Assembly: GCA_944324115.1 (NCBI GenBank)
Contig: CALUVB010000001.1
Coordinates: forward strand, 1-64,000
Reading direction: 5' to 3'
From: an uncultured Elusimicrobiales bacterium
Lineage (GTDB): Bacteria; Elusimicrobiota; Elusimicrobia; Elusimicrobiales; Elusimicrobiaceae
DNA length: 64,000 nt
In this document: piece by piece, positions 20,458 to 39,659 of the stretch
Layout of the letters: each line of letters begins with the position of its first letter
Numbering within the stretch: position 1 is the stretch's first letter
Position numbers and translations under genes: made by a program
Notes under the pieces: model-generated
Databases searched by the model: none
The model's input: only the letters and a program-made list of their open reading frames with translations
What the model was told of the DNA's origin: nothing

Positions 20458-21618
20458 TTATTGATATTTGGCAATAAACGCTTCTTTAAACTGGCTGAAG
20501 GTGCCGGTTTCTATCGCTTGGCGTATATTTTCCATAGTGCGCGTTAAGAAACGGATATTATGCATAGAGAGCAAGCGGTGGCTAGTTAATTCTCCGCTGC
20601 GGAACAAATGGCTTAAATAGGCGCGTGAATAGTTCCGGCAGGCAAAGCAGTCACAATTGGCGTCTAGCGGCCGTTCGTCTAAACGGAAGCAGGCATTTTT
20701 GATATTCAAACGGCCTTCTTCAGTCATAACCATTCCATTGCGCGCCACACGGGTGGGCCACACGCAGTCAAACATATCCACTCCGCGTTCTACACAGTTT
20801 AATATTTCCACCGGGGTGCCCAGACCCATAAAATAGCGCGGTTTTTCTTCTGGGAGATTTTCAGTTACCGCCAAGACGGCTTCATTCATCTGCTTTGACG
20901 TTTCCCCTAAGGACAAGCCTCCTATGCAATAACCATGGGTGTCCAAAGAGGCCATATGCTGGGCCGCTTCTTTGCGCAAATCAGTGAAAATGGAGCCTTG
21001 AATAATACCAAAAAGCAGAGAGTTTCCTACCGTATAGGAGCCATCGGCCTTCGGGGCGATATGCTGTTGTGGAACGGTTTTTTTGTATTGCGCCGCTGCC
21101 CGTTCGGCCCAACGTTTTGTTTGTTCCAGCGCCAGGCGCGCATCGCGTTTGGAAGGATCTTTGGCATGGATGCATACGTCTAACATGGTCCAAATGTCAG
21201 AGCCGATCTCACTTTCAAATTCAATGACGTTTTCCGGCGTGAAAAGATGTTTGCTTCCGTCGTGATGAGAACGGAACAGCACGCCTTCTTCGCTGATTTT
21301 GCGCAGGGGGGATAAACTGTATACTTGGAAGCCGCCAGAATCGGTTAAAATGCTTCCGTTCCATTTCATAAATTGATGCAGCCCGCCCAAGGCCTGCAAG
21401 GTTTTCGTGCCGGGGCGTAAATATAAATGATATGTGTTGGAGAGCAAACATTCGGCATGAATATCCTGCAAATCTGCTGAAGTTAACGCTTTTACGCTGG
21501 CTTGGGTAGCCACCGGCATAAAAACGGGGGTTTTTACTTGGCCGTGTTTTGTATATAAAATACCAGTTCGGGCACGGGTTTGAGGGTCTTTTTTTAAGAT
21601 ACGAAAAGGGGAAATCAT
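20458..21618 (-). CDS. tgt: tRNA-guanine transglycosylase (queuine/preQ1)
   Basis: 386 residues. Exchanges G34 of GUN-anticodon tRNAs for preQ1. The catalytic Asp lies in LTDSGGFQVYSL (D93). The substrate loop reads GGLSLGET, the nucleophile region VDMFDCVWPTRVARNG, and the zinc site CDCFACRNYSRAYLSHL with a later SMHN is intact. queA, the next enzyme of the pathway, lies upstream on the same strand at 22.2-23.2 kb. A TGA-TAAAAT box ends six bases before the ATG without a Shine-Dalgarno, so this start is probably leaderless even though an RNA-like leader element sits 170 bp upstream. Confidence 0.97.
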   Translation of the reverse strand: MISPFRILKKDPQTRARTGILYTKHGQVKTPVFMPVATQASVKALTSADLQDIHAECLLSNTYHLYLRPGTKTLQALGGLHQFMKWNGSILTDSGGFQVYSLSPLRKISEEGVLFRSHHDGSKHLFTPENVIEFESEIGSDIWTMLDVCIHAKDPSKRDARLALEQTKRWAERAAAQYKKTVPQQHIAPKADGSYTVGNSLLFGIIQGSIFTDLRKEAAQHMASLDTHGYCIGGLSLGETSKQMNEAVLAVTENLPEEKPRYFMGLGTPVEILNCVERGVDMFDCVWPTRVARNGMVMTEEGRLNIKNACFRLDERPLDANCDCFACRNYSRAYLSHLFRSGELTSHRLLSMHNIRFLTRTMENIRQAIETGTFSQFKEAFIAKYQ

Positions 21619-21624
21619 ATATTT

Positions 21625-21630
21625 ATTTTA
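21625..21630 (-). promoter_or_regulatory. Extended -10 of tgt, leaderless start
   Basis: TGA-TAAAAT on the minus strand, six bases before the ATG at 21618. Confidence 0.5.
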
Positions 21631-21784
21631 TCATATGGGCGGGCGCTGCGTCTTGGGCGCAGAGCGTAAAAAAAGAGCATGGCGTGAGATAAAATAAAAA
21701 CCATACAGATACGCAGCGGGTTTGCTTATTGGCCGCATATGGCAGCGTTGTTTTCTCACGAGACACAGCAACAGATTATGCCGT

Positions 21785-21821
21785 AAAAAGGAACGCCTTT
21801 CCTAAGAAGGAAAGGCGTTCC
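21785..21821 (-). terminator. Terminator of the candidate RNA
   Basis: 13-bp perfect stem GGAACGCCTTTCC/GGAAAGGCGTTCC with a small loop. On the minus strand it is followed by TTTTT. About 170 bp upstream of tgt. Confidence 0.85.
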
Positions 21822-21910
21822 CTTGTGGTATACTGCCACCCTTTCTCCCCCCCGGGAAAACAGTAGGCAGTTGGAGAAAAAGATAGCCTATTAATATTAT
21901 TTTTTGTATA
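21785..21910 (-). ncRNA. Candidate structured small RNA or leader with pseudoknot and terminator
   Basis: A complete transcription unit without an ORF: promoter at 21917-21945, then two interleaved inverted repeats (21832-21837 with 21866-21871, ACTGCC/GGCAGT; 21841-21848 with 21873-21881, CTTTCTCC/GGAGAAAAA) that would form an H-type pseudoknot, then a 13-bp terminator hairpin and five T. It matches no RNA family I can name: it is not 6S, SRP or RNase P by eye, and the short preQ1 motif consensus is not evident. Its place in front of tgt makes a queuosine-linked regulator possible but unproven. Confidence 0.5.
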
Positions 21911-21916
21911 TAAAAA

Positions 21917-21945
21917 AGATTAGTAAATAAAAACGAACATGTCAA
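21917..21945 (-). promoter_or_regulatory. Promoter of the candidate RNA
   Basis: TTGACA (21940-21945), exactly 17 bp, TAATCT (21917-21922) on the minus strand, one of the best -35/-10 pairs in the window. The remaining gap to queA (21946-22172) shows no gene. Confidence 0.6.
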
Positions 21946-22172: not shown

Positions 22173-23207
22173 TTACAGAAGCAGCATGCTGTCTCCAAAC
22201 GAATAGAAGCGGTATTTTTTCTCCACTGCTTGGCTGTAAGCGCGGAAAATAAAATCTTCCGAGGCAAACGCAGTTACCATGCATAAAGGAGTGGAATCCG
22301 GGAAATGGAAGTTTGTAATAAAACAATCTATCGCTTTAAACTGATATCCAGGATAAATAAACAAATCGGTCCATTTTTTGCCGCTTTTTGTCAGTCCGTT
22401 CTCGGTAAAGCTTTCCAGCGTGCGCGTACTGGTCGTACCTACGGAAAAAATGCGTTTTCCCTCTTTGCGCGCGGCATTGATTGCAGCTGCCGTTTCGGCA
22501 GGCACTTCGGCCAGTTCCGGCAACATATGGTGTTGCTCCGGCTCTGTGCGCAGTGGTTTAAACGTGCCCCAGCCCACATGCAGGGTAATATAAACAATCT
22601 GTACGCCTTTGTCTTTCAATTTTTTTAGCAGTTCTTCTGTAAAGTGGAAGCCCGCCGTCGGCGCGGCGATGGATCCTTCATATTTGGCATAGACTGTTTG
22701 GTAGCGTTCTTTGTCTCCTGCCAAACTGGGGCTTAGGCCTTCGTGTTTACGGGCCTTTTCAATATATACCGGCAAAGGCATGAGGCCGTGCCCGTGGCAG
22801 AAGGGCAGGATATCTTCCTGGCTAAAACGTATCAGCACTTCATTATTTGCGGTTTTTCCTGTCATTTGGCCCCGCAAACCGTCTCCGAAATCCAATTCGG
22901 CGTTTTCTTTATAATCACGCGTCAGCACGGTCCATACGTGGGGATCTTGCTGGGGGCGCACCAGCAAAATCTCTACTTTTCCGCCGGTTTTCTTATGTGC
23001 AAAAAGCTTGGCGGGAAATACTTTGGTATTGTTTAGCACCAAGACGTCGCCGGGGTTAAAATATTCATGAATATCATGAAAAATGCGGTGTTCTATTGTT
23101 TGTGTGTCGCGGTGCAGCACCATTAGGCGCGAGCTGTCGCGCGGGGTGGCTGGCTGCTTGGCGATTAAAGGGTCAATATTAAATTGTTTAAAACGTTCAA
23201 AAGCCAT
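22173..23207 (-). CDS. queA: S-adenosylmethionine:tRNA ribosyltransferase-isomerase
   Basis: 344 residues. Adds the cyclopentene ring precursor to preQ1-tRNA, making epoxyqueuosine. DPLIAKQPATPRDSSRLMV, GDVLVLNNTKVFPAKLF, GSIAAPTAGFHFTEELL, LHVGWGTFKPLR and the C-terminal FITNFHFPDSTPLCMVTAF are family motifs. The start lies one base from the spoIID stop, so the two are coupled. Pathway partner of tgt downstream. Confidence 0.97.
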   Translation of the reverse strand: MAFERFKQFNIDPLIAKQPATPRDSSRLMVLHRDTQTIEHRIFHDIHEYFNPGDVLVLNNTKVFPAKLFAHKKTGGKVEILLVRPQQDPHVWTVLTRDYKENAELDFGDGLRGQMTGKTANNEVLIRFSQEDILPFCHGHGLMPLPVYIEKARKHEGLSPSLAGDKERYQTVYAKYEGSIAAPTAGFHFTEELLKKLKDKGVQIVYITLHVGWGTFKPLRTEPEQHHMLPELAEVPAETAAAINAARKEGKRIFSVGTTSTRTLESFTENGLTKSGKKWTDLFIYPGYQFKAIDCFITNFHFPDSTPLCMVTAFASEDFIFRAYSQAVEKKYRFYSFGDSMLLL

Positions 23208-39163: not shown

Positions 39164-39505
39164 GGGGGTGTAATAGATTCGACGGGTATCTGTTACTGCT
39201 CGGGAGCAGGTATTGGTTGGCCAGGCCAATTAAAATAGGGCTAACAAAATAACTAACGACAATCAAGTCGCTTGGGCTAACGCTTAGTCCACTGCCGTCT
39301 CTGTGCTTTTCACACGCGGGGACAAGGCAGTCATTATGTGAAATGCGGCATAGCGGGCGCGTTTCGTCTTGTTATGCTTAAGACCCACGAAACAAATCAT
39401 GCGGGTGCTGCCGTGCGCTTACTGCATGATTACCAAGCGCGGCTAAACCTGTAGGGCCTAAGCGGTTAAGATGTTCGGACGGGGGTGCGAATCCCCCCAC
39501 CTCCA
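39164..39505 (+). ncRNA. ssrA: Transfer-messenger RNA (tmRNA)
   Basis: The 5' end GGGGGTG pairs with 3' CACCTCC (one G-U). The conserved TAGATTCGACGGG near the 5' end and the T-arm GGGGG-TGCGAAT-CCCCC near the 3' end are clear. Length ~342 nt, and the CCA is not encoded. The only long tag frame after the AATAG-type resume region reads ANKITNDNQVAWANA then TAG (39240-39287), so the tag ends in ANA rather than the usual LAA. Rescues stalled ribosomes with SmpB, which is not in this window. Confidence 0.95.
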
Positions 39506-39659
39506 CTTTTTTACAGCAAAGCGTGCAGCTTTGCAGGGCCGGCCGTCTTGGCAATTGGCATACGTTTGCGTGGGCTTTAGGGCAAACGGCGCAGACAAGC
39601 CGGCGGTTTTCGGACAAAATATACGGGAATAATACAGATTTTAATTTTACGGAGGATTT

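Follow-up and report, generated by a model that had tools for sequence, protein, structure and literature searches.

The window analyzed here, 64 kb of DNA from an uncultured Elusimicrobiales bacterium, carries a probable small RNA gene on the minus strand between queA and tgt, two genes whose identities were confirmed by Pfam (Table 1). The original prediction had placed an RNA between these genes, with a TTGACA-17-TAATCT promoter, a 13-bp terminator and no open reading frame, and each of these elements was recovered: the promoter is present as described, the terminator consists of a 13-bp core followed by T5, and the frame that opens at a GTG in the linker soon stops or is lost or variable between copies. 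The predicted RNA is ∼125 nt long and its terminator ends ∼165 nt before tgt. An automatic feature scan listed neither the promoter nor the terminator of the RNA, so both rest on our reading of the sequence together with their conservation. The region folds better than 200 of 200 shuffled sequences (z = -5.9), a strong score that is mostly due to the terminator.

Table 1. Coordinates of the putative small RNA gene, its parts and other features in the 64-kb window
Feature	Positions	Strand	Basis or conservation
queA	22173-23207		Pfam Queuosine_synth
RNA promoter, 17-nt spacer between boxes	21917-21945	-	Spacer of 17 nt in 9 of 10 copies, 16 nt in G047
-35 box TTGACA	21940-21945	-	TTGACA in 6 type A copies, TTGAYN in 4 type B copies
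-10 box TAATCT	21917-21922	-	Type A copies keep TTTACTAATCT or slight variants of it
AU-rich RNA leader, putative start near 21911	21861-21911	-	51% mean identity in type A
Two 5' arms of the putative pseudoknot, within the leader	21873-21879 and 21866-21871	-	
Hairpin UUUUCCC-GGGG-GGGAGAA	21843-21860	-	Same sequence in 6 species; 4 more have an equivalent 7-bp hairpin and share the loop
Hairpin 3' arm and linker read as GGGGGGGAGAAAGG-GTG	21838-21853	-	Resembles a ribosome-binding site in 9 of 10 copies
Linker AGGGUGGCAGUAUACCAC	21825-21842	-	Type A: GGGUGGCAGUAU, with almost no variation; type B: GGGUGAGUUGYA
Intrinsic terminator, 13-bp core and U-tail	21785-21824	-	Fold; paired changes
Terminator core GGAACGCCTTTCC/GGAAAGGCGTTCC, then T5	21785-21821	-	
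tgt extended -10 box TGATAAAAT, outside the RNA	21625-21633	-	In 26 of 30 tgt loci
Extended -10 box and tgt start	21616-21633	-	Example of the boxes enriched in the genus
tgt	20458-21618	-	Pfam TGT
tmRNA gene	39164-39508	+	Confident Rfam match

By DNA search, copies were recovered from further genomes of the genus, just upstream of tgt, and in total homologues were found in 10 species of this one genus of Elusimicrobiales (records named "uncultured Elusimicrobiales bacterium"), each directly upstream of tgt and in the same orientation. The copies are of two types. Type A carries the exact 19-mer TTTTCCCGGGGGGGAGAAA, found at the tgt locus in 6 of 66 genomes of the genus, while type B, marked by CTTTTCCGGGGGGAAAAGGGTGAGTTG, was recognized in 3 more genomes by reading their queA-tgt intervals and in a fourth by covariance search. 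No copy is evident in 55 of the 66 genomes, although 62 of them have tgt. When 90 genomes of the family and 341 of the phylum were searched with a model built on both types, no convincing copy turned up beyond the 10. Of the weak covariance matches, those inspected were L130 and L131 (from another genus) and L078 (in G026), all of which lack the motif; further weak matches lay in G141, G095 and G167. In a phylogenetic tree of tgt, the 10 RNA-bearing species fall within one group of 11 (support 84/90), such that all but one species of a single subclade carry the RNA; one gain and one apparent loss would suffice to explain its distribution, although support for the group is moderate. Its place near queA and tgt has been inherited within one clade, and by itself does not show a link to queuosine.

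The remainder of the queA-tgt gap differs in content between species, with opposite-strand pilin-like genes in L041, L046, L047 and L049 and kinase-like or YrbL-like genes in L045, L051 to L053 and L056 (all identified by eye). A mobile or phage origin was considered and rejected, as there was no match to plasmids or viral contigs and the single weak phage match was confined to the AT-rich promoter and leader. The hairpin 19-mer also occurs once in a Bacteroidetes MAG (L134, 6294-6312) and once in a Desulfobacterales MAG (L138, 4436-4454).

Neither the element nor the 10 homologous loci matched any Rfam family at the gathering score, in agreement with the original prediction, which had recognized no RNA class in it; sub-threshold matches align chiefly the terminator. 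Elsewhere in the window, Rfam identified a tmRNA gene. The literature we searched, which covered few subscription journals, contained no title describing small RNAs of the Elusimicrobial lineage.

Comparison among relatives, the check proposed with the original prediction, revealed both conservation in 10 species and paired changes in the hairpin and terminator. In type A, mean identity is 92% across the hairpin and linker (a figure lowered by an inserted A in one copy), 51% in the leader, 41% beyond the terminator and 54% at fourfold-degenerate sites of tgt; the corresponding values in type B are 98, 76, 55 and 82%, where the figure for tgt draws on three genomes. The promoter, hairpin, terminator and the GGGUG that starts the linker are conserved across copies, and the GGGG loop is invariant across types even though the stem differs, with type B forming CUUUUCC-GGGG-GGAAAAG. 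The -10 box and the hairpin lie 51 to 89 nt apart in type A and only 12 to 18 nt apart in type B, which together with the low identity of the type A leader indicates that the leader is not essential. When the two types are aligned, all hairpin cells pair and two pairs are changed on both sides, as are 9 of 12 modelled terminator pairs, and sliding the pairing by 1 to 3 columns destroys most of this signal; since the alignment had been made to fit the structure and the changes in the hairpin go back to a single A/B split rather than many events, we regard the covariation as supportive rather than strong. Three type B loci (L045, L048 and L080) additionally share a conserved AT-rich stretch upstream of the promoter, AATAATCTAATTATTTTTTA, which contains a TAATCT resembling the -10 box of type A; it could be a second promoter or an upstream element.

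The original prediction also described an H-type pseudoknot. Two crossing pairs of complementary segments do exist (TTTCTCC/GGAGAAA and ACTGCC/GGCAGT), and crossing complementarity of such length appears in ∼1% of shuffled leaders, but the conserved structure is a different one. While the 3' arms fall in the conserved block, the 5' arms are confined to this genome and absent in the nine relatives, and type B has almost no leader to hold them. The conserved hairpin and the first pair are in competition, and in the predicted fold the second pair extends this hairpin in a nested manner; the minimum-energy fold is nested throughout, although the program used does not predict pseudoknots. Because the 5' arms occur only here, the fold is nested and type B has hardly any leader, we rejected the pseudoknot as a conserved structure and regard it as at most a feature of one species.

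The tgt gene appears to have a promoter of its own. Among 30 tgt loci inspected, 26 carry an extended -10 box, TGnTAAAAT, 6 to 8 nt ahead of the ATG, whether the RNA is present or not; two more carry TGnTAGAAT, and the last two are G059 and G041, where tgt closely follows another gene. No Shine-Dalgarno sequence is evident before the tgt ATG in this genome. The genus is enriched in boxes of this kind that lie 4 to 8 nt before an ATG with no obvious Shine-Dalgarno sequence: with two mismatches allowed, TRATAAAATATANATATG had 27 matches in this genome, compared to 1 for the reversed pattern, and in G047 TGnTAWAAT preceded an ATG 52 times versus 10 in the control. These patterns suggest that leaderless transcripts are common in the genus. 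With its box so close to the start codon, the main tgt mRNA should begin downstream of the RNA's terminator and is probably leaderless, making it doubtful that the RNA lies within the 5' leader of the tgt mRNA.

We therefore favor, with some confidence, an independent small RNA gene of ∼125 nt that has its own promoter and terminator and acts in trans. This had been one of two options in the original prediction, and it gains from the conservation of promoter, hairpin and terminator in 10 species and from the apparent promoter of tgt. Transcription would start at the sigma-70-type promoter on the minus strand and end at the intrinsic terminator; the working part would be the 3' half, comprising the 7-bp GGGG-loop hairpin, the GGGUG linker and the terminator hairpin, and either the loop and linker would base pair with mRNAs or a protein would bind the RNA. 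Sequence comparison establishes the anatomy and its conservation, and we infer expression and action in trans because the sequence is so rigidly conserved and is separate from the tgt transcript. Independent, intrinsically terminated sRNAs of bacteria are similar in their sigma-70-like promoter, length of ∼100 to 130 nt, succession of hairpin, linker and terminator, lack of an open reading frame and narrow phylogenetic range. Here too the promoter and the terminator are both conserved among relatives and no coding frame is. The RNA differs from such sRNAs in matching no Rfam sRNA family at threshold and in that a search of the genome for Hfq found none, which would make any pairing Hfq-independent.

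Searches for pairing partners yielded no credible target, a weak negative given that they covered one full genome and about half of a second. The complement of the linker, ATACTGCCACCC, occurred at near-control counts in six genomes, with no target in common. Pairing with the start of tgt, where Ser-Pro-Phe codons look complementary, ranked only 376th among 1,407 gene starts in G047 and 96th among 592 in G043, and this candidate was rejected. A scan of ortholog pairs for 454 genes produced one outlier that beat 60 of 60 controls, and the top five as a group equaled the controls; we judged the outlier an artefact of a crude gene finder, because the ORF looks non-coding and its pairing sites differ between the two genomes.

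Of the other readings, a cis-acting attenuator is unlikely. It would place the element in a long tgt leader, where a ligand, protein or tRNA acting on the hairpin and linker switches termination. The order of hairpin, linker and terminator is an attenuator layout, and the constant position and orientation of all 10 copies right in front of tgt would also be explained by a role in cis and counts against an sRNA acting in trans. The 5' arm of the terminator (GGGAA) can moreover pair weakly with UUCCC of the hairpin, but as an antiterminator this amounts to ∼5 bp and is lost in G016, where the terminator arm reads GCAAACG, and no other is evident. The distance from the terminator to tgt ranges from ∼70 to ∼510 nt across copies, and a probably leaderless tgt start downstream of the terminator, with the same extended -10 box in genomes that lack the RNA, argues against attenuation.

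Two further possibilities concern how an independent RNA might work. We give a rather small chance to a new class of Hfq-independent regulatory RNA in which the GGGG-loop hairpin and the Shine-Dalgarno-like GGGGGGGAG...GGGUG serve as a decoy or antisense, possibly controlling tgt or queuosine. Quite unlikely, in our estimate, is a protein-binding RNA that serves as a sponge or scaffold instead of an antisense RNA; the hairpin stem is almost invariant in sequence, beyond what pairing alone demands, and the searches for pairing targets came up empty, but there is no candidate protein and no resemblance to known protein-binding motifs among those tested.

The original prediction had also raised a preQ1-type attenuator of a new form, a proposal that finds no support here. 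Riboswitches for preQ1 are pseudoknots in leaders that bind this ligand, and the class I switch of Bacillus subtilis is followed by a terminator (PMC11625349). The RNA described here shares with the B. subtilis switch the downstream terminator and with preQ1 classes I to III (RF00522, RF01054 and RF02680) the vicinity of queuosine genes and, in this genome only, crossing complementarity. Unlike these classes, it has no conserved pseudoknot, matches none of their covariance models and probably lies outside the tgt mRNA, as it should end before tgt's own promoter. It is also missing from most genomes of the genus although nearly all have tgt. A new preQ1 or queuine riboswitch controlling tgt is accordingly very improbable. 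Equally hard to credit is a leader peptide or small protein read from the linker GTG (GGGGGGGAG-AAAGG-GTG), since, for all the likeness of the preceding sequence to a strong ribosome-binding site, in G010 and G047 the frame meets a TAA after three codons, in G016 its start is GTA, the frame runs across the terminator, and the residues it encodes are not conserved from one type to the other.

We conclude that the locus probably holds a real sRNA gene, ordinary in kind, specific to its lineage and not filed before. A riboswitch call needs more than crossing repeats in a single genome and nearness to queA and tgt. To our knowledge, few regulatory RNAs have been described in the Elusimicrobial phylum, and these findings add a small-RNA family that Rfam lacks and provide its exact conserved module for testing; the lineage is an uncultured one of the Elusimicrobiales in which Hfq was not detected. 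In addition, the leaderless appearance of tgt and other genes, with their extended -10 box, may aid annotators of these genomes.
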